NCBI GenBank assembly: GCA_030267965.1
Contig: BRYA01000112.1
Coordinates: 25,944-89,943 of the forward strand
Direction: 5' to 3'
DNA length: 64,000 nucleotides
Source: Triparma columacea
Taxonomy: Eukaryota > Sar > Bolidophyceae > Parmales > Triparmaceae
The notes beneath the pieces are model-generated. The model was not told the origin of the DNA and did no database searches. It saw only the letters and a program-made list of their open reading frames with translations. Below are positions 48,690 through 64,000 of this stretch, one piece after another (the first letter of the stretch is position 1; each line of letters starts with the position of its first letter). The position numbers and the translations under genes are program-made.

Positions 48690-51600
48690 ATGGTCAAGGA
48701 GAAGCGTTACAAGGTGATTCGTCGGGTGAAGGTCCCTGTCCAGGCGACATCACCCGACAGTTCTACCTCACTCAGCGTAAAAAGCGACAGGAAGGTTGGA
48801 TTCAGTGACCTTAATGGCAACGACCAAACTGATGAGGGGGGAGATAGGCCCAGGGGGGTCATGTTCGCGGACGATACCAAGTCAGGGGGACCAATACACG
48901 AGAACGAGCGGGATAAGAAGGAGAAAGAGGAGGAGGAGGAGAAGGGGGATAATATTGTGGAGAGACCACCCTCACCGGAGTTGCCCGAGGGTGAGTTTGT
49001 AATCTAGTTAGGGAGGGACGGAGGAAGGAGGGTGGGATGCGCTTAAAACGCACGCACATATCACTTAAACTACTGTTACGCACACGCACATCCCCACTTC
49101 TAACCCACCGCTCTGACTCACACACCCAGGCGAGTACAAGTACGCAAACTTCATCGTTGGTGGCGAGCACGCAACAGACCCTGACCTCAACCCTTTTTCA
49201 GCCCTCAACGCAAAGAAACGCGCGGACGAGAAAAGGAGGAAAGAAGAGGAGGAGAATGCGATCGAGGACGCGAAGAGGAAGCGCAGCGACGAGGAACACA
49301 GGAAATTGAGCATGTTAGAGACGGAGAGGAAGGAAAAATCAAAGGTGAGTGAATGTCCGGCATAAAGGGCAGAGCAAGTTGGCATGCGGCATCAATCGCC
49401 TTAACCCCCCCCCCCCCCCCCTACCCCCAGCGCTCTCGAGGCTCAATACTACAGATAAAGAATACGTTCGGCAGCTACATTACAAACACGTCAATGAAGC
49501 GCGGATCCATCCTCTTTGTATCCAACAAAAAGGAAGCACCCGCATCAGCTAAGCAGGAGACAATACAAGTCTTCGACGAGGAAGACAAGGAGAAACCAAG
49601 GAAACACTTCATGATACCCAAACCTGGATTCATGACGCCGGACCTGCCGCCGTCTTCGAAAGGTGCCGCGGCCTCTCCATTAGAACAACAGAATAAACCT
49701 ATTTCACCGAGCACGAAGCCCTCCATGTTAAGGAGAATGTCCAACGCTATATTCGGCCCCCCCGCATTCCTGAAGCCCTCGAAAGTGCCCGAGGACGTGG
49801 AGATGGTAGCACCAATCAAGGAGGACAAAGACGACGACGACGATGGCGACGAGAGCAAGAGGAACGAGGAAGAGAAGAAACAGGACGAGGAGGATATGCA
49901 ATTTCTCCTCAATGCAGACAACGAGGTCGAGGAGATTGATGAGACGGAGAAAATGAGGATAAAAGAGGGTAGCAAGGAAGAGAAGGAAGAGAAGGAAGAG
50001 AAGAAAGAGAGGGAAGGGAGGGAGGATAAACCGCCGCCGCTCCAGCCGGCAGCGTCTTCGGACGACAGCCCTAACAAGGAAAGGTCGGGGAACGCTAGTG
50101 GGGTGGACTCAGCCGAAGAAACTGCCTCGCAGTCGTCGGCGAGCGACGATGTCGACTCTGAGGAAGACAACACAGGACCCGGAGACCAGAGCCTTGCGGC
50201 GAGGAAGAAAGAGAAGAGGAAACAAAAGCGTAAGGAGGAGGCGGAAGCTGAGGCCAAGGGGGGCGAAGAAAAGGAAAAAGTAAGCGAAGTGGTCAAAGTT
50301 TCCATTAAAGGTGAGCAACGATTGAAAGAGAAGTGAAGAAACCAACTACAAGATCTAACAAATCGCCACGATCTCCATCCACCCTTGCAGAGGTTAAGAA
50401 GCAAGAAAGGGCTCGGCGACGGCTCGCCTCGGTACACGCAATTCCCGACATGTCTGCAGTGGTCGAAGAGCCCGCAGAACCTGTTGAGTCCCTCGAGGAA
50501 AAACTCGCCAAACAAAAGGCGATAGACGATGCCGCTTTAGACGCGGCCGACAGGATGAAGAAGGAGAACGAAGAGTTCCTGAGGAAGCTCAGAGGTGGGG
50601 ACGGGGACGGATCTGTCGACTCTCAGGGAAGGGAACTCTCAGAGACAGTTGTTGACACCATCAACGGATCGAAGCTCTTCAAGTTTGAGAGGTAAGAAGG
50701 ACGAGAGAGAGAGAGAGAGTGAAAGTGAAGTGATAGCAAGGAAGCGTTTAGGCACGCACGCAGGTGCACTCGCAGGCACGGCAAATCGAACGCTAATATG
50801 CAAACGCCCCTTCGGTTATCTGTTCGCTCCTCCTCGTCGTCGCAGGTACTTTATCTACCTGCAGTTCACATCCGTGATACTAACTGTCAATATAAACTGG
50901 CCATCAGCCTTCAATTACTCGTTCGGGGTGGCGGCTTGGTTGACCCAGGAATGGTACGTGATGGCCTTCCACCTTGCGTTCGACATCCTGAGGTTCCCCG
51001 AGCTCGTGGACATAGTAGACCTGGCCTTTTACTACTGGCTTGTGAACTTCGCGCTGAAACTGTGCTCAGTCGTGATCTTTCTCACCGCATTCTTCAACTT
51101 CTGGGTTATCAAGGACTACACGGACCCTAAGTACACGGACAACTGGATTATGATTTACATCCACCACTGGTGGAACCTTGTGCTCTTCTGGAAGAGCGGA
51201 TTCATGAGGTGCGTCTTCTTCACCAGCTGCCTTTGGGGGCTCGTCGTAGCGATAGGCACCATCCTGTGGGTTGCCATGGACAAGAAGAGGGGAGTCGCCT
51301 TCATCGTGTCCGGATCCCTCTATCTGGCTGTCTGGTTTGTTATCTACATTATTGTGGTGCAGTCTGTCAGATACGCATTCCAGAGGAAGACGCAGAACAA
51401 CGAGTATTACACTATGAGGATCATGATGAAGAACGTCGTGGAGACGAAGAATAAGGTCTGCCTCTTCCTCCTCACGGCCCTCTACCTGCCCACGATTGTC
51501 TGTATCCTCAAGTCGATCATCCCCATCTACGACTGGAACGACACCCACGCACCGACCCCACGACAGGACCAGATCAAGTATGTTATCTACGAGAACTTCT

Positions 51601-54600
51601 TCTACAAGAGCGCGAACCATGGCCTCAACACCTTGACGAATCAGGTCAACTACCATATCTCGTGCTACCTCATGGCCTTCCCCCCCAACGTGTCTCCCAT
51701 CACAAATATTACCACGTCCATTGTCGACTGCAACTCGCCCACCGGCTATTCGCTGCTTTCGGGGATGTCCCTGTTCGTCCCCATTTACATGCTTGGGTTC
51801 CCCATCATGTGCTTTTACTTGGCATTAGTAAGCTACAGATCCATGAAGAGCAGCAACTGGTTTCCCAACTACCAGGCCCAGGTGCTATCGTACACTAACG
51901 CGAATAGGAGCCTCAGGAAGGAAGCTCTAAAGGACGGGAAGATTTTCTTGCTTATCAAGGTGAAGGTTCTCGTGTTCGTGCATGAACTATTCAAAGGTAT
52001 CGTAGCCGATGTCAAGGGTGCCCTCCTCGTTGTCTTTTTCCAGGAAACTAAGCAGATCAGTAAGGCCGAGCAGAGGAGAATCAAACTTAAGAAACAAGAG
52101 ATAAGGCAGAAGGAAGAAAAGTGGCTCGAAGCCCGCGCGGACTGGAGGAAGAAGACGGACCTCTTCGCCAACGGTGGAAGGTTCACAGCCTTCATCTACA
52201 TCATGATCTTTGCAAACTTGGGAGTCATGGGGCATGAACGTGGGATGTACGTCATCGATTTTGTCACGGAGGGGGTGGACGAGGAGGGAAATCCCGTCAA
52301 CAACAAGGACCTACTGAGCCTCCTCAACTACTTCTTCGCCTTAATTTTCTTTATCGAGCTCGTACTGAAGTGGACGGGAATGGGCGCAAAGTTCTACCTT
52401 CGCGACCCCTTCAATGTCTTTGACTGCTTCCTGGTCTCTTTCTCCATCTTTGAGATTTTCATTGTACCTTACGTCTTTCCCAACGACGATGGCCTCAATG
52501 TACTTGGAGGCAACTCTACTTTCACAAACGTGACCTCGGTCGGCGGAAGCAGCGAGAGCTCGGGCGGTAGCGGTGTCGGCGGTGCAAAGGCCCTCAGAAT
52601 GCTGAAGTCTGTCAGGATCCTTAAAATGCTTAGGCTTGGGAAAATCGTCAAGTCCATTCGAATGAAGATCAACAGGCATTTGAAGCGCGTGGAAGGAATG
52701 TACGACATGGACGACTATGAGTGGCCCGAGTGGAGGAGAAATCTCAAGAAGAAGGTGACTGGAAACCTTTTCACAAACTTCATCTACCTTTGCATCTTTG
52801 TGAACCTCGCAGGAGTCTTCAAAGGGGACGACTTCAAGGCCGAAGAACCTGACCTCGGCTATCCTGTCATGTTCTGGAGTGACAGGGTGTTTGGTATAAT
52901 CTTTTCCTTCGAGATGTTGGTGAAGTGGGTTGGCCTTGGGCCCAAGCTTTACTTCATGGACCCCTTTGAGATGCTCAACTTCTTGCTTGTGTGCAGCGGG
53001 TGGGCAGAGATCATTGCCATCCCTGGCTCCCCGGATCCGCCCTTGGAAGGTGACGTCGTGGACGCCGGAGGCGGAGGCGGTGCCGGTGCGGCAAAGATGG
53101 CACGCCTTGCGAGGTTTGCCCGTTTCGCCCGTTTTGCCCGCGTCCTGCGCCTCCTAAAGATATTTAAGCCCCAGACCCAGACGGCCTGGCGCTTCCAAAA
53201 GTCCCTCGAGTTCAGGTGCTCCAAGGTGAACCAGAAATTTAGGGCGAGTTGCGAGGAGTACATCAGCACGGTCAAGGCCTTCACCATCGACCACGAGCTG
53301 GTCATCCTAACGTGGGACAGTCTTCTCGACGCGTCCTCTACAATCTATCTCGTCCAGCCTTTCAAGCACGCCTTCCGCTACTGGAAGTCCATCCACTTCT
53401 TGGAGATTCTCACCTTCACGAGCACCGCGACTGTAATGAGGCGGAACTTTGAACCTTCGACGCAGCTCATCTTCATGCTGGCAATACTCACCTTCTTCCA
53501 GTTCATTCACATCATCTTTCTCCCCTACCTCTTCAGTAGGGAGAGAAAGCTCGACTTTTTCTGCAGGCTTTGCTGTATGTCGAACTGCGGAATGGGGATC
53601 TTGATCGACCAAGAAATTTTGACTGGCGACGCCGCTTCGGGGCTGATCGTCCTGTGCAATTTGGGCCTCCTCTTACTCTTCGCTTTCTTGATGGAACTGC
53701 CCCAGCTCGTCAAAAAGAGCCTGTGGGGGTTGAGGAACAGGGTGGACAGTGGTGTTGTCAAGTTTTTGTTCAAGCAGCTCGACAGAAAGAACCTTGCTCT
53801 AGAGAACGTCCACACTGGACTGCTGACACTGCAACAGTGGGATAATATGGTCGAGGACGAGCAGTGGATGGGCTTCGTAGGGCTCAGCAAGACCAAGCCT
53901 ACGAACCTTCTTTCCACAACGCAAAGGCTGAGGTACTTGAAGTGGGCCGCCATCAGGAATATGAAGCTCATCAACATCAGGGACCCAGTTGGGGTCACCG
54001 TTCTCCACGAGGCCATGGCTAGGGCCGAGCCCGAGATGTGCAGGTGGCTCGTATTCCACGACCGTGATTTCGTAGACCTGGAGGACGATGGGAGGGACAC
54101 CCCACTATTAATTGGCCTGAAGGAGTGCGCAAGGGCCCTACTTGCTTTGAACGAATCTCCCAGCAACGAAATGAGCTGGAGGCGTGCTAGGTTTGCCGAT
54201 ATTTTCCTCAGCGAGCAGATCCACGGCAGTCACCCTTACTGGAACAGGTTCCATTACGCGACCTTGGAAGATTTGGCGCTCCCGATGCTGGGGGAGCTGA
54301 CGCAGCAGCTTTCAAGCGCCTTCGACCTTAACCCACCCGAGGGCTACGTGAGGGTTTCGAAGTGGAGCAAGTACGGCGATAGCATTATGGAGTTCTTGGC
54401 CGAGATGTATGTGGCAAGCAGGCTTGAGCTGAAACTGTACAACATGGAGCTTGGGGACATTGGTTTCAAAAGTCTTATTGCAATGTGCCAGAAGATGAGT
54501 GTTAGGCACACAAGCTTTACTGTGCCGACGAATTTCAAGCTCTTCTACAACATCAATGTGATTAAGTTGGACTTGAGGATGAATCGTCTCAAGCACGATG

Positions 54601-57098
54601 CCGGCATAGCCATTGCAAATATGCTGGAGACAAATGCAACGCTGCGGGTGCTCGACCTGAGTGACAATGCCATCGACGATGATGCCGGCGTTGCCATCAT
54701 GGAGGCCCTGAGGCACAACCATAGTGTGACCAACCTCGGGTTCAACAGGAACCTTTTGGGCCCGGCAGCCGGGAAGGAGCTCGCCCATTGCCTGAAGAGG
54801 AACCAGGTGCTTATGGAGGTGCACTGTGGATTCAACAGCATGGGCGCAAAGAGATTCTGGAAGGACGCCGAAGTGGAGGAATTTGTCGAGGGTGCGGGCC
54901 ACGAATTGGGAATGAGCCTTAGGCACAACAAGAGCTTGACGGTGCTCGACTTGGAGGGGAACCGGCTGGGGGCCGATACCGGTGACGCTTTCGCCCAAAT
55001 GATGAGGAAGAACACTACGCTGTTGCAGCTCAACCTTGGGACGAACGAAATCTTGGTGGAGGGGGGGAGGCATTTGGCCAACAGCGTCAGCAAAAATAAG
55101 GGCATCACCTACCTTAACTTGAGGGACAACCAGCTTGGGCCCAAGGCTGGGATGGCCTTCGCAAGAAGTCTCAAGGACAACCACGTGCTTGCGCACCTTG
55201 ACCTCAGGACAAACAAGCTTGGTTATAAGGCCGGGCAGGCTTTCGCCATTGCGATGATGCACAACACCTCCCTGATTAGCATCAACCTCGAGAACAACGA
55301 CTTTGGGCCGAATGTCGGGAAGAAGTGGGCAACAGCAATCCAGCGGAATGTGGGGCTCACCGATATTGACTTTAGCAACAACGACCTTGGCAAGCACAGC
55401 CACTTGGGAGGCGAGCCTGACGAGCTCGGCGTTATGCTCAAGAGAGCGCTCGAAGCGAACTGCCAGCTTACGTCTCTCAACTTCAGCGGCTGTCACTTCG
55501 ACAGCAAGACCTTCATTGCCGTGTGCGGCGCCTTCATGAGGATGGAAGCCTTGCGGGTTCTGAAGCTCGACGACCTGCTGTTGGACGAACCCAGCACGCT
55601 GCAACTGTGCAACGCCCTGGAGCATTTCCCGGTGAGAATCCTCAGCCTGGCCAGGTGCAACATTGGAGACAGCGCCAAGGCTGCGAACTTGCTGGCGAAC
55701 TGCCTGAGGTCGCTGCAGACGTTGGTTTCCCTCGATTTGAGCGGTAACATTCTCGGGAGCCGAAGGGAGATGAATGAGGCCCTCAGCGATGCGTTCCAAT
55801 CCCACGGCATGCAAATTAAGGAGCTAAACTTGAGTGGCAACCGCCTTGGGCCTGAGGGTGGAGCTCTCGTGGCGACAGGTCTGGGGCACCTCCATACTTT
55901 GGAATGGCTCGACATCAGCAACAACGACCTCGACGCCGACGTGTGCAGGGAGCTCGCAGAAAGCCTGAGGGAGATAATTAGCTTCGGGGTCGTTACGAAG
56001 GAGTGCACCATCAAGCACTTCGAGGGAAGCAATAACAAGTTTGGAGATGAGGCGGCGAGCGAGCTCGTCATGGCCTTTTACAACGAGGTCACTCACTTTA
56101 TTGGGCTTCAGAATTGCAACTTAGGACCCCTCACAGGCGCTAGCCTCGGAAAGGGCCTCGGTCGCCCGACGATTTCTTGGGTGGAGCTGAATATTGCCGA
56201 CAACCTGCTGGGGAAGGATGGCGCCAATAGCATCTGGTGGTCGCTGAGAAAGAACCACTCTCTACTGAATCTCAACATGGAGAACAACAAGGTTGGGCCC
56301 GAATTTGGCACGGAAGAGGACGAGCTAGGCCTTCACGGGATCAGCATTGACACCGCGCTCGAGAGGAACTTCACCCTAAGACATGTAAACATGGATAACA
56401 ATGGCATTTCTGCGAAGGCAGGAGTGATGTTTGCTGGTAGCTTGAGTTTTAACAAGGGCTTACAGAACATCTGCTTTCAGAACAACGCCCTTGACCACGT
56501 CGTCGGGGAGTACATTGGCGAAAGGCTCGAGTTCGACAAGCAGATTGTCAGTCTCAACTTCAACGGCAACCATCTCGGTTGGGAGGGCGGAAAGGCCATT
56601 GCAAACGCACTCTTTACGAATAGGTTCCTCGTCAGCCTCGACTTGGGAAACAATATGATAGGGGAGAACGGCCCAAGGGTCGGCATGATGTTCGCAAAGG
56701 CAATCTACCAGAACAATGTATTGAAGAGTTTGAAGCTCGCAGGCAACAGGTGAGAGGCAAGGCAAAGAGGGAAGCTGCAGCTAGCGAAGCGAAGTTCAAA
56801 ACGATTTGCAGTAGTTGTTGCGGGTCGATCCCTCTCTTCGAACTGCCTCTTACCCTGTACACCCACTCACCACAGATTCGGAAGCCACGCGGGGCAAAGC
56901 TTCACCGAGGCCTTGAAGAGGAACAAGACCCTGACGGAGCTCGACTTCTTTAACAACAGGCTCACTGAGGAGGTAGGAGAAATGTTTCTTGAAATGCTAG
57001 AGGACAACAACGCCCTAGTAAGGCTGCGGCTGTGCGAGGTCGAAATTGGAAAGGAGTGTGCCGACAAAATTAATAGCATCGTGTCTGCGCGGCAGTAA
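48690..57098 (+). CDS. Giant membrane protein: tandem voltage-sensor-like modules + ankyrin-like + RI-type LRR array
   Basis: Six exons (48690-48990, 49130-49344, 49431-50310, 50391-50691, 50846-56749, 56876-57098) with consistent phases, 2607 aa. Residues 1-565 are charged and disordered. From about 566 there are roughly six membrane helices (FIYLQFTSVILTVNI, AFIVSGSLYLAVWFVIYIIVV and others). About 1000-1160 is a voltage-sensor-like bundle ending in ALRMLKSVRILKMLRLGKIVK. About 1200-1345 is a second, ending in ARLARFARFARFARVLRLLKIF, with Arg/Lys every third residue as in S4. Neither is followed by an obvious pore loop and S6; only two to three further helices come before about 1520. Around 1610-1660 is ankyrin-like (VGVTVLHEAMARAEPEMCRWLV). 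From about 1750 to the end is a long ribonuclease-inhibitor-type LRR array (LRVLDLSDNAIDDDAGVAI, NLGTNEILVEGGRHLA). Probably a membrane voltage sensor coupled to a binding platform; function inferred. Confidence 0.85.
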
Positions 57099-57710: not shown

Positions 57711-60700
57711 ATGGATCGCCGCGTCATGGAACTCAGCGAGGAAATTGGATCGTCAACGGACCAACGCGGGGAAAGCGATCGCGAAGATCCCTCTTTCAAA
57801 GGCATGGAGGGGGAGAAGCCTCCCCGCAGGATTGATGCTCCAGACCAAGAGGCTGCTCCCGGTGATGGTAGTCAACCAGACGACGACGCATCGAAGCAGC
57901 ACGACAATGTTCTCCTGAAGACCAACTCAAAAAACATTGCCCGGTCCAACAACAGACCACCCATAGACTCCAACCATAATACCTGCAAGCTGTTTCAATC
58001 AAAGCTTTTATCGAGGGGAGCAGTGGAGGGTCTCCTCGACGATTCGACGGGAGACGACACAAGGAAGTTTTTACGGCTAGCTGATCTCGGCCACGAGACC
58101 CCAGACAAGGTCGTTGACTTTCTCCTGTCCGAATCAAAGGAGGGGAAATTCCGACGCCACATCGTCCACGAGTATTCTCGCAGAAGGAGGATCTTGTACT
58201 GGCAGCACTACAGCAGCGGGAATAAGTTTGTAGAATTTCTCCTCGACATGCGGGTCAAGCGTAACGCCACAGATAACCTAAATAATTACACCATTGACGT
58301 TAACTCAATTAATATCAACGAAGACAATAAGGAATTGCCAGAAGAGGCTGTCTCGAAGCTCGCGGAAATCCTGGGCTCTACGAGAAAGGCAAAGCGAGGA
58401 AAGATAGACATGGGCCTGATGACCGTCACAGAGATTGATTACGGGCAGTCGGCGGTTGTGTTCGTAGGGACGTTGGTTTCAGAGGACAGAGAGACTGACA
58501 TTGTGTCCTCCTCCAACGCTAGCTCCAAGCCAGGCAACGTCCGTAAGCAGGCCTCAAAGGCATTCATTGGCACCCCATCTAGCGGCAAGAGGGGCTTCAG
58601 CTCCGGTAAGACTTTCAACTCAACATTCAGCGGGGGAAGTGTCAAGGAGGTTTTTGACTCTTTCAAGGAGGTATTTAAGGAGGTTGGGAGACAGTTCAGG
58701 CAGCCTGATGTCATTGACATGAGGAGGAAGAAACACTTTGTAGAAGTGGTCATGCCCAATGTGCCAACTCTTACTGAGGAAGAGGACAGGATGCTGGAAA
58801 GTGTTGCAGGGCTGGAGGAGGAACTCTACAAGAAGGGAAAGAGAGTCAAGGGGACACTGAAGGAGGGCATTGACAAGTTCCTGTGGAGAGAGGAGGACAA
58901 GGTGTGGGCAGCCTTTGGGGTAACTGTGGACAAGTCAGCAGAGGCTGTGTTGGCAGAGGAATTTCTGCTTGACGCATTTGAGTGGTCAGAGGAGCACTTC
59001 AAAAATAATGGGAATTTACCAAGGGTTATCAGGAATGATTTTGAGGGAACTAGAAGCATGCACTTTCATTTGGGTGTGAAGGTCCCTGCCGCCACCAACC
59101 GACTCTTTGAGATGTGGTTTGTGTGGAAGGAAGTCAAACTTGAGAATGGCCGGACTTCGTACATGTTAGCTTTTGTGCCACTGACAGAGTACCCAGGAGG
59201 AGGCTTCAAGGACCTTAGTAAGGAAGGATTTGTGCTAGCAGAGACTACAGGTGTCCACTTCTTCAATGAGATTGCCCCAAATGTCTGTAGGGTGACACGT
59301 ATTCAGACAGTTGATCTGCATTTCAAAGGCCTTCAAAAGACACTGATGGACAATGCCATTAACTACCTTGCAAAGAATCAGCTTGTTGAGGCCAACAGGT
59401 TGCAGAAGAAGTTCAGGAGGAATGGGAAGGAAGTTGATGCTGAGGTTAGGGGGGCCTTGGTGGAGAGGATGAGGGAGGGTGTTGAGTTGAAGGAGGACCA
59501 GAAGAAGGTTTTTGGGCAGTTGGAGAAGTTGTTTGGAGGTGTTGGTGGATGGGAGGATATTGCTTCACCTTATCAAGGTGTCAAGATGGGGGTAAAGCAT
59601 GAGCAGCAAGCGACAAATGAGAGGAGCATCACGCTTGTGCAAGCTGAGGGAATGGCGGATTGCACGGCTGAGGAAGGTAAGTGGTATTAAGTGGGGGGGG
59701 AGAAAAGAAATGCCAAATGTTATTAACCACAATAAACCCACAGCTGCTGCGTGGTATTTCTTGCTCTGCAGCAGGGCAAGAGCCTATACGGACAGAGAAG
59801 AAGGAAACCCAGCAAGGTTTGAGGTCAGAAAACAGGGAGGGAGGATCAATGAGAAATTCTTTGCGTTTGTCAGAAAGATGCCGGGGCTGCTACAAAATAG
59901 AGAGTTTTTGATGCAATTCATTTGGAAGCAAGACAAAAACGACAGAGTGTCAGTAGGTATCAACCCAATCGGTGAAGAGGTTGACTACGGAGGCAACATG
60001 GGCAAATTGGTAAGGGGGAAAACCACAGCAATCTTCACTGCTACCAATGTGCACGCTGTTGAAGGTGGAGTAAATCAGTGCTATATAAACATAAGACAGA
60101 AGTTCGATTTGGGAGGTCATATTCCAGTTTCTGTCTTGAATCTCTTGGCCCCCAAAGTTTTAGGAGTTGTTCACAACATTGCAAAAACTTTCCAGCGGGA
60201 TGATGAGGTTGATACAGCTGCACTGGCCTCCCTTGCCAACATCATAAAGAATAAGCCTCAAGATTATACAGATGAAGAGGAGGATTCAATCAGGAAGGGA
60301 AAGGAGTTTTATGAGAAATGCAAGAAGGATGAGAACTTTGATGATCTGAAGAGTCCTGATGAGAGGGTCAAAATGAAGCTAGTTCATGTTGATGGGGAGA
60401 GCGTCATAAGTGGGATAGCTACAACTGTAGTTGATGCTAGTGTGGAGGAGTGTGCTGCCTATGAGTACTCAAGCGTCTACAGTAGAAGTTGGAAAAAATT
60501 GGCTTCACAGTCAGGTTTTTCTCAAGTGAACACAAGGTTTGTAAACAACCACACTCTCTACTACATCACAACTAGGAGTCTTGGCGTCCCTGGATTTGCT
60601 CCTCGTGATGGGAGGAGTAAAGTGACTTGGTTCAAGCAAGATGATGGCAAAGTAATTATTGATGTTGCAGACACAGGCGAACTTCAGGTAGACTTCCCAG

Positions 60701-63700
60701 TGAAGGCTAGGAATGTATTAGTGGACTTCCATGGAGTTTGGTTTTTTGAGCCACTAGAACCTATTGGAGATGTGCCACAAACATCAGTGACTTTCACAAC
60801 AAAGTTAGACCTTGGTGGTGTCATTTTCTCCTCCATCATGAACAAGATTGCACCAAGGTTTCTTGCACAAGTCTCAGACTTAAGAAAGGAGTTTGACAAG
60901 AGCGAAGAGATTGATGCCTTCAAGAGACAGCAAATCATTGCAAAATTTGAGGAGATTGCAATTGAGGGGGCACCAGGGATTCAAAGTCACTTTGATGAGA
61001 TTGATGGAGCTCAAGAGATCAGTAGAGGGTTGACTGGACAGACATTGATAAAGGCAGAGAAGAGAATGGGTTGGGGGAAGACTTCAATAACTGTGAGAGC
61101 ATCCTACAAGGAAGTTGCAGCATTCTTCTGGGACCTTAAAAATGGAGCCGACTCTGAGCTTGAGGTTCACAGAGTTAACAACAAGACACTTGTAATCACA
61201 GTTGAACACAAAGGGCATCTCACAGCTGTAAGGTTCTCAGAGGCTGGCCAGATGAAGACAGATGTTGAAATGACGACTAGACATAAGGGTTTAGGAAAAG
61301 CTGCAAGCAAACAGAGTGTAATTAAGCACCTGAGCATGGCAACTGACGCTGTTCACTACTTTGACAACCTTCTGAAGAGCACAGAAGCAGGGGAACAGGA
61401 TGGGAGGAGGTTTGGAGAGCAGCTGATGGAGAGGGTGAAGGAAAGGAATACTGGGGACAGTAAGGTAGAGGTCGTGAGGGAATATATTGCCGCCAATAGG
61501 GCACTAGGAGAGATTACAGAGCAGCATGGTTTCATGAGAACTATGCTGTTTGCTCTGGTTATGAACAAACTAAGGAGGAGAGCAACAAATGAGGGAGAAG
61601 TTAAGAGTGAGGAGGAAGCCAGGGGGTGGGAGATCGGGAGTGCAATGACAGCAGTCATGTTGACCACAGCAACTGCAGCACATGCTGTTGATGAATGGGC
61701 ACATCAATTTACTGAAGTGCAGGAGGTTATGAATGAACAAGTGTGGTTAAGGCCCATGCTTGAGGAGATAGTTATGAAACTATTCATGAAGTCTAACTTA
61801 GGCTTAAAGGCAAGAGTTACTGTTGGGGCTATTACTAGTATGTCTGATTTGCTGACTGATGTGTATGTGACGCAAATGTTTTGGAGAGATGAAAAGTATG
61901 GGTACTTCATGGCTTCTTTGGCAAGTTTGGCAGTCTCAATTGGGATTCAAATGTTTACTGTTTGGGCACAGAACAGGAAGTTGGGGATGTTCAAGGTGAT
62001 TAGGGAGTGGTTCCCTATTTTGATTGGCTTTAAGCCCGCAGTTGATGCTTACAGGGTAGCAAAAGGCGAAAAACAGAAAGTAGGACAATCATTTGATGTT
62101 CTGACAGAGTTGACTACCATGAAATGCGCAGAAATGTTTGCTGAGGCAATCCCTGGAGTGATCATCCAACTTATGGCTATTGTGACAAGCGTAAACGAGG
62201 TTTCAAGGGCAGCCTGGTTATCACTCGCAGTTTCTGCTCTAACAACAGGCTTTGCATCAGCAAGTATCAGTTATGACTTTGACACTGACCCAGTGAAGAG
62301 AGAACAAGTGCCTGACTTCTATGGGTATGTGCCTGCAAATCCCACCAAGAGATCTATTGTATTTGGTTCAATGATGCTATTTAGCGCATGTATGCTTGTG
62401 GTAAGGTGCACGACAATAGTTGTGTTAGGGCTGCTTGGTGGTAGATGGGTCTCTATCTATGTTGGGACTGACCTTGGTCTGTATTTGTTGGTGAAGATCT
62501 TGAGAGGAGACTTTTGGTATTGGATTCCTGCTGGGGGAACGGTAGAAATATTGAGTAGTATTGTCTGCAGAGTGTTGGTGAAAGTGGTGGGAGACTTCAC
62601 TTCAATTGTGCAGTTTAGGCATCCTAATGAGGTTGGAGGGATGTATTGGATGTTTGGCTTTGTATTGACAATGGGAAGTCTTCCAGTAGCTATAATGCTA
62701 GCTGCAAGGGAAGATAATGTTGAGGAGCAACTTGAAATTGCATGGGCAGTAGTTGGAATATTTATACCATGTACAATTGTGTTGTTTGCTGTATTTTTTT
62801 TTACCATTAAAAGAAAATACTTAGGCACCTTCTACAGCTTGCAAAGGGGTAAAGATTTAACAGTACAAAGTTTCAGAGGGGGCACAGATACTATCAAAGC
62901 AGTCTTTACACTCAAAAGGTCAAAGCATCATTGGAAGTCGATTGAAAAGGAAGTAAGAGCTTGGGTAGAGGCTAACTGGGATAGATGGGAGGAAGAGAAG
63001 CCAGATTGGTTTGATGATGCTATGAGAGCTAGAGTGCCAGTTGAATACATTCCAGGAGCAGGAGATGCTAGAAGGAGAGAGAGTGTTAGGAGAGCAAGTG
63101 TTGATGCCGAAGCTGAGGGTGGTATAGCAGGTGCTTTGAGAGCAAGTATGAGGAGAGCAAGTGTTGGCTTGGACAATGGAGGTGCATTGGTTTCTTCACT
63201 AGCAGTGAATAATACTGCACAAGGCTATGCAGGTTTAGATCCTGACCAAATAGGAAAGTTGTTGAGTGAGCAACTGTTGGTTGCATTAGGTTTCAGGAAG
63301 AAGGGAATGACAAAGGAGGAAGCTGTCAGGTCATTTATTAGGAAAAACTACATTCTAAGACAGGTTGCAGGAAAGTACCCGTTTGTCACACCAATGTTTG
63401 GCGCTGTTGTCAAGAATAAGCTGTGCAAGTTGAGGAAGGTAGAGGGTAAGGCTATAGAGCTGGGAGAGGAGGAAGGAAGGGAGATTGGAGAGTCTCTAGC
63501 GAGGAGCTTGGCCATTAATACTCAGCCAGTTGCTGCTGTAGATGCCTTCATATTAAATTTCCCTGCTCTACAGGAGCTTGACGAGGAATATGAGTGGTTC
63601 AGACCTATGCTTGAGACAATTAGCTACAGGCTTTTGGAGGAAGTGCCTTGGGGGTTGAAGGCGAGAGTGACTGTTGGTGCTATCACAAGTATGGCAGATT

Positions 63701-64000
63701 TGCTAACTGACGTGTATGTGACGTACATGTTTTGGAGTGACAAAAAGTATGGGTACTTTAAGGCATCTTTTGCAAGTTTGGCAGCGTCAATTGGGATTCA
63801 AATCTTGGTTGTTTGGATGCAGAACAAGAATTTGGGCATGAAGAGGGTGTTAAGGGAATGGTTTCCAATTTTAATTGGATTTAAACCTGCTGTAGATGCT
63901 TACAGGGTAGCAAAAGGAGGAAAGCAAGAGGCTGGACAAGTTGCTGATGCCTTGACAGAGATGAGTGTCATGAAAATTACTGAGATGTTTGCTGAAGCAA
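57711..64000 (+). CDS. Multi-START-like polytopic membrane protein (runs off the right edge)
   Basis: Exon 1 57711-59676, exon 2 59744 onward with no stop to 64000; phase 1 join (EEAAWYFLL). About 2070 residues are visible. The soluble part carries about five successive START/Bet v1-like modules, recognisable by their helix-strand ends such as KVWAAFGVTVDKSAEAVLA, VHFFNEIAPNVCRVTRIQTVDLHFKG, TSITVRASYKEVAAFFWDL. From about 61500 follows a membrane module starting WLRPMLEEIVMKL, with ARVTVGAITSMSDLLTDVYVTQMFW, GFKPAVDAYRVAKG, MFAEAIPGVIIQLMAI and further helices. A second copy of this module starts at about 63580 and continues off the window. Between the copies lies a Ser/Arg-rich linker with two RRASV-type motifs. 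I recall large families like this in Parmales genomes; the function is undescribed, and lipid sensing or transfer at a membrane is inference. Exon 2 is more AT-rich than its neighbours. Confidence 0.75.
61735..64000 (+). repeat. Internal duplication of the membrane module (two copies, second partial)
   Basis: About 61735-62170 and about 63590-64000 align at DNA level without gaps that break the frame: ctgactgatgtgtatgtgac, aaaagtatgggtactt, tcaattgggattcaaat and gatgcttacagggtagcaaa occur in both. Identity is high by eye (roughly 80 percent or more). Confidence 0.85.

Follow-up and report, generated by a model that had tools for sequence, protein, structure and literature searches.

Two pore-less voltage-sensor domains nested in a membrane and leucine-rich repeat protein of Triparma columacea

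Triparma is a tiny marine alga of the sister group of the diatoms. We analyzed a window of 64,000 nucleotides from Triparma columacea (assembly GCA_030267965.1, contig BRYA01000112.1, positions 25,944 to 89,943 of the forward strand), which contains a six-exon gene with GT-AG introns (48690-57098, + strand, window coordinates). According to our splice model, it encodes in one open frame a protein of 2607 aa, here called P0001. This protein carries two voltage-sensor domains (VSD1 and VSD2) between two blocks of membrane helices (N-block and C-block), behind which come a connector and an extended platform of ribonuclease-inhibitor-type leucine-rich repeats (LRRs). Both sensors lack a pore, their S4 charges are conserved, and in a relative devoid of sensors a spacer takes their position. 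Such a pair of pore-less sensors nested in a membrane/LRR protein is a new form of the known VSD-effector proteins. In the genomic DNA, the domain order is contained in a single open frame of 2056 codons. The first-pass annotation had placed the protein at 50846..57098, which covers exons 5 and 6; the gene starts at 48690 and has four more exons.

The two sensors were detected with the Ion_trans profile, a search that the first-pass annotation had proposed as a check. With a whole-protein E of 3e-30, the profile hits P0001 twice, best at residues 534-696 (profile 4-119 of 241). A scan of the six frames of the genome (37.85 Mb, 789 contigs) likewise gave two separate matches within the gene, which cover profile positions 4-119 and 3-114. 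As previously proposed, each of the two S4-like helices thus closes a four-helix S1-S4 unit with no pore loop or S6 behind it: the matches stop at 119 and 114 of 241 and no S5-pore-S6 was found after VSD1 or VSD2. VSD1 is followed by VSD2 and VSD2 by the C-block, with no pore half in either place, and the stretch of about 35 residues from S4 of VSD1 to S1 of VSD2 is too short to hold S5-pore-S6. Two S1-S4-only matches also differ from the layout of two-pore channels, which have two six-helix repeats with pores.

In both VSDs, a basic residue occupies each third S4 position in the five sequences compared (P0001 and the orthologues described below), and the S2 Phe and Glu are invariant, as is the S3 Asp of VSD1. 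Identity in the S4 of VSD2 amounts to 82-100% for P0002-P0004 and to 50% for P0005, where the charge run is shorter. An S1 Asn is also invariant (N545 and N741); N545 aligns with an S1 Asn of Cav3 in an alignment of sequences other than Hv1. The selectivity filter of Hv1 is an S1 Asp. The closest solved VSDs by sequence, in a search of the PDB, are those of the four-domain Cav/Nav channels, whose S5-pore-S6 does not follow either VSD of P0001. They are also the nearest by fold, judged on a poor model: Foldseek with the low-confidence tandem-VSD prediction gave 185 matches at E<=10, none at E<=0.001, and the 50 of these 185 that were listed belong to Nav, Nax or Cav, with one entry named no more closely than "structure of a channel". 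These fold matches are supportive at most. An alignment with Cav3-type proteins that laid VSD2 over pore segments was not used for folding.

An orthologue search, likewise proposed at first pass, returned four further proteins with the same domain order (P0002-P0005, 45-77% identity over the searched part), so that the order of P0001 is not due to chance. P0005 is partial (70% covered); P0004, from Triparma laevis f. inornata, is the protein TL16_g05422 (61% identity in the searched part). The N-block of P0001 is 80/67/69% identical to those of P0002/P0003/P0004, P0005 covering only 46 of its residues. Against P0002/P0003/P0004/P0005, identity amounts to 72/53/54/50% for VSD1, 91/73/71/51% for VSD2, 72/55/57/50% for the C-block, 89/84/77/68% for the connector and 84/78/72/61% for the LRRs. 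In P0002-P0004, VSD2 is better conserved than the helix blocks around it, whereas VSD1 is not. The protein database annotates P0002-P0005, as well as P0122 (see below), with PF27087.

With residues 88-450 as query, only three orthologues were recovered. Residues 880-1330 retrieved five proteins (E<=0.5, 6173 candidates), namely the four orthologues and P0122, a EukProt protein of 2385 aa (database E 2.1e-36). No Ion_trans is present in P0122, either in its database annotation or in our Pfam scan. One-sequence searches nevertheless matched it with the N-block (E 2.8e-17), the C-block (2.8e-9), the connector (1.1e-45) and the LRRs (2.5e-109), while the profiles of VSD1 and of the linker gave no match. 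About 205 residues lie between the matched parts of P0122; they include a Ser/His/Gln-rich run and a single stretch of moderate hydrophobicity. The two flanking helix blocks are parts of one host protein, and the VSDs between them look like an insert. The six-helix block ahead of the sensors, earlier suggested as a pore source, is not a separate pore candidate; by homology to P0122 it is the first part of the host, whose second part follows the VSDs. We infer that the sensors were gained in the P0001 line; the P0001/P0122 pair alone also fits a loss. Single-sequence searches of the genome found no further copies of the host blocks.

As to the nature of the host, our starting lead was the presumed resemblance of the flanking blocks to two parts of the algal TRP-like (PF06011) domain. 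This family is large in the genome (e.g., L029-L060), and several members have Cys-rich repeats before the membrane domain. PF06011 matches 52 places at E<=1, 14 of them above the cut-off, mainly through its C-terminal part. We built a TRP-like profile of 22 rows from 32 loci, excluding 10 as partial or near-copies; L036 and L060 are the same place, which leaves 21 places. Each aligned row runs for some 290-350 residues without a break that could hold VSDs. P0001-P0004 match this profile in three collinear pieces, and the truncated P0005 in one. The second piece ends at profile positions 186-225 and the third begins at 213, so the VSDs fall in a loop at about positions 186-225. When the VSDs were cut out and bias correction was turned off, P0001-P0004 scored 20.9-32.8 bits; for each of them, none of 500 shuffles (10-residue windows) reached the score, the highest shuffle being 16.2. 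Reversed sequences scored -0.1 to 6.6, and the best of 165 other ORFs or proteins under the same settings (148 scored) reached 5.9, these being mostly calcium-channel relatives and therefore not independent. A control with swapped order did not discriminate (5.8-32.5 swapped vs 5.9-32.8). Both host blocks have a weak collinear similarity to the continuous TRP-like proteins of the same genome, and we regard a TRP-like host as probable: the shuffles speak for it, hhalign and the Pfam threshold (see below) against it.

The LRR platform was predicted correctly at first pass, at about 850 residues of ribonuclease-inhibitor type. We count 21 motif matches, spaced by exactly 28 residues in 11 of 20 intervals, and Pfam reports LRR_6 in P0001 with E 1.1e-22. 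Ribonuclease-inhibitor-type LRR proteins likewise have repeats of about 28 residues; in P0001 they are attached to a membrane protein. PDB sequence matches of the LRRs include ribonuclease-inhibitor-like, LRRC34 and DRC5 entries, and a flagellar location of the LRR protein would be possible. The ankyrin-like stretch announced before the LRRs is present as a weak Ank_2 match, although below the curated cut-off (E 0.043, 14.8 bits vs 27.3); four of the five sequences have an ankyrin-like match at E<=1 (best 0.0073). The Pfam families listed for the five sequences include no PTEN-like phosphatase, Na_H_Exchanger or cyclic-nucleotide-binding domain, and Pfam found no enzyme domain in P0001.

These results lead us to favor, with modest confidence, a model in which a tandem insert of pore-less VSDs regulates a TRP-like/LRR membrane protein. 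The VSDs that the genome carries in further membrane proteins outside the channels (see below), and SLC9C1 as an established case, also speak for it. The host would be a multi-helix domain, probably TRP-like, followed by the connector and the LRR platform, with the two VSDs inserted in one of its cytosolic loops. A VSD begins and ends on the cytosolic side, so such an insert would keep the topology of the host. A change in voltage would move both S4 helices, which would pull on the linkers into VSD2 and into the second host half. This pull may alter the state of the host, i.e. its conduction, if it conducts, and/or binding by the LRR platform. We infer the topology, the direction of insertion, voltage sensing, coupling and output of P0001.

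Several observations weigh against this model. The position of the S3 Asp is an Asn in VSD2 of all five sequences, and VSD2 may therefore sense weakly. The structure prediction proposed at first pass was run for the five sequences, with a mean pLDDT (predicted local distance difference test) of only 36.6 for the membrane part (1153 aa) and 45.7 for the tandem VSDs (364 aa); both models are of low confidence, and only the 4+4 helix order of the second was used. In a one-sequence search, the VSD2 profile matches a host helix of P0122 (E 0.0052), which we take as chance, and P0122, being a gene prediction, could hide a missed exon. The TRP-like kinship is affected as well. Run at default settings, the profile gives the full-length proteins P0001-P0005 no more than 1.3-12.5 bits, and in P0001-P0004 the first of the pieces always falls below 0 bits. 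P0122 scores 5.9, which 28 of 500 shuffles reach, and the hhalign probability to TRP-like is at most 17.7%. PF06011 is absent from the Pfam matches of P0001 at E<=1 and from the nine families of the five sequences. A Pfam scan of the whole proteins assigned no domain to the host blocks, and PDB sequence searches with profiles of both blocks gave nothing at E<=10.

Other explanations were weighed as well. P0001 could be a voltage-gated channel of new layout, in which the host domain forms the pore, the two VSDs gate it and the LRRs anchor or regulate it. A sensor and a pore in one chain are the working principle of voltage-gated channels, and the host is weakly similar to a family that Pfam names TRP. 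However, we recognized no pore or selectivity motif in the host, nothing in our analysis shows ion conduction by the algal TRP-like family, and among solved structures a profile of four algal TRP-like domains matched none convincingly (best E 1.6). A channel of this kind is rather unlikely. We consider equally doubtful a non-conducting switch from voltage to scaffold, where S4 motion would change binding by the connector and LRRs, as in a voltage-sensing phosphatase. The connector and LRRs are, at 77-89% and 72-84% identity to P0002-P0004, among the best-kept parts together with VSD2 (71-91%), but conservation is silent on the identity of the LRR partner.

Less likely again, the VSDs may have ceased to sense voltage and now serve as structural or dimerizing helices. 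This would agree with the Asn in S3 of VSD2 and the shorter S4 charge run of P0005, but not with the three-residue charge register kept in both S4 helices of the five sequences, nor with the identity of the VSD2 S4 in P0002-P0004. Finally, the gene model is based on genomic DNA without transcript, and neighboring genes might have been fused by assembly or gene prediction. The single open frame and the recurrence of the order in four other records make such an artefact very improbable.

Pore-less sensors are found elsewhere in the genome. Among 150 scored Ion_trans matches, we chose by eye 13 that end by about profile position 131 with no second half nearby, on 11 contigs including this one. 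Each of these 13 loci was read, and the remaining rows were judged from the match table only. L021 (G000 C321, 1720-8898, +) encodes an ABCA-type transporter with an S1-S4-only VSD ahead of each of its two ATPase domains. L064 (G000 C392, 3837-5273 and 2748-3833, both -) encodes an NCKX/NCX-type exchanger whose two Na_Ca_ex halves are separated by an S1-S4 module: the first half and the VSD share one frame and the second half lies in the next, apparently as two predicted exons, and the S4 appears to be split by an intron. A VSD is also present in four RyR/IP3R-like loci (L022, L023, L025 and L026 on C206, C147, C39 and C329), three of which have RIH or RIH_assoc matches, while L025 is labeled by resemblance only. 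In L023, the frame with the VSD also contains, near the C-terminus, a distinct Ion_trans match to the pore half. L024 (C35, 2351-5893, +) joins a Na+/H+ exchanger, a VSD and a cyclic-nucleotide-binding domain in one frame, an SLC9C1-like protein in a unicellular alga. A VSD precedes a nucleotide cyclase in L061 (C300), in one frame, and in L063 (C83), over two frames. A candidate on C210 was read as an apparently ordinary complete channel. From their architecture, the other inserted VSDs would lie in cytosolic parts, and the nested sensors of P0001 may belong to a pattern that extends across this genome.

We compared these sensors with those of channels in two trees with long branches and partial channel sampling. 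In the tree of 39 rows, with four-domain channels only, one branch (96/95) splits the 16 insert rows from the 23 channel rows. For the 44-row tree, we added five of 12 extra channels, the VSD matches of the other seven being short or weak; P0002 and P0003 were excluded, as were loci that overlapped. Here the VSDs of the TRP-like/LRR protein cluster with those of ABCA and NCKX (81/96, recovered in 78% of bootstrap trees) within a fork (83/88) that includes domain-II sensors of P0006, P0030 and the like. A second cluster (75/96) contains the sensors of the RyR/IP3R-like, exchanger and cyclase loci and adjoins one long-branched channel. Both trees place the P0001 VSDs with those of ABCA and NCKX (91/79 in the 39-row tree) but disagree on how these relate to channels: they fall outside the channels with 39 rows and near Cav/Nav domain II with 44. 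VSD1 and VSD2 do not come out demonstrably as each other's closest relatives. A single origin, or an origin from domain II, is possible on these sequences. Tentatively, and with less confidence than the model for P0001, we propose a transplantable pore-less sensor, possibly of Cav/Nav domain II, placed twice in the TRP-like/LRR protein, twice in ABCA and once in NCKX, giving undescribed voltage-controlled transporters and scaffolds.

P0001 resembles SLC9C1, the sperm-type Na+/H+ exchanger, in having a pore-less VSD on a membrane protein other than a voltage-gated channel. SLC9C1 has one VSD after its exchanger, with a cyclic-nucleotide-binding domain, whereas P0001 has two between host halves, LRRs and no match to exchanger or cyclic-nucleotide-binding domain. 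In voltage-sensing phosphatases, the VSD is near the N-terminus. These proteins and the VSD-cyclases couple a VSD to a cytosolic output, as P0001 would. According to the available part of one study, VSD-cyclases, reported from Phytophthora and from stramenopiles/alveolates, carry the VSD near the N-terminus and have an enzyme output, unlike the nested tandem VSDs of P0001 with no Pfam enzyme domain (PMC12223298). SLC9C1 is called the only known transporter under VSD control in the accessible text of a 2023 Nature paper (PMC10620092), and that of a 2024 review of voltage-sensor proteins names channels, SLC9C1, phosphatases, Hv1 and TMEM266 (PMC13095418). With cyclases added, the same proteins make up the list across the portions available of PMC13095418, PMC10620092 and PMC10651576. 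The first-pass annotation had called the union of sensors and LRRs new: our literature searches, of partial coverage with few subscription papers, found no VSD-LRR, VSD-ABC or VSD-NCKX proteins, but its list of known partners (pore, phosphatase or proton path) omits SLC9C1 and the VSD-cyclases that these partial sources describe.

The features of the gene are given in Table 1. Sequence comparison with P0004 of Triparma laevis shows the motifs encoded by exons 1-4, and those at the end of the protein, in the same order. An adjacent long frame (window 59596-63999, +) has a weak XK-related match and, by eye, repeated segments.

Table 1. Features of the P0001 gene in window coordinates
Feature	Position	Strand	Basis and content
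Exons 1-4	48690-48990, 49130-49344, 49431-50310, 50391-50691	+	GT-AG splice model; hydrophilic, acidic N-terminus of ~565 aa
Exon 5	50846..56749	+	Helix blocks, both VSDs, ankyrin-like part, majority of LRRs
N-block, host membrane protein part 1	50847..51932	+	P0001 residues 89-450; hydropathy, P0122 homology, weak TRP-like profile match
VSD1, S1-S4 only	52161..52670	+	Residues 527-696; Ion_trans profile 4-119/241
S4 of VSD1	52572..52664	+	Basic residue every third position
VSD2, S1-S4 only	52740..53180	+	Residues 720-866; Ion_trans profile 3-114/241
S4 of VSD2	53085..53168	+	Basic residue every third position
C-block, host membrane protein part 2	53193..53720	+	Residues 871-1046; P0122 homology, weak TRP-like profile match
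Conserved connector, weak ankyrin-like repeats	53721..54368	+	Ank_2 match 53970-54149; kept in P0122
Ribonuclease-inhibitor-type LRRs, at least 21 repeats	54558..57095	+	Reaching into exon 6
Exon 6	56876..57098	+	Final LRRs and stop codon; matching LRRs continue here in P0003 and P0004

If our model is true, the nested tandem sensors, together with the inserts of ABC and NCKX type, would widen the range of voltage-controlled proteins. They suggest that voltage control may be pluggable into non-channel proteins, and the VSD-less P0122 offers a natural comparison for how a sensor gains control of a new partner.

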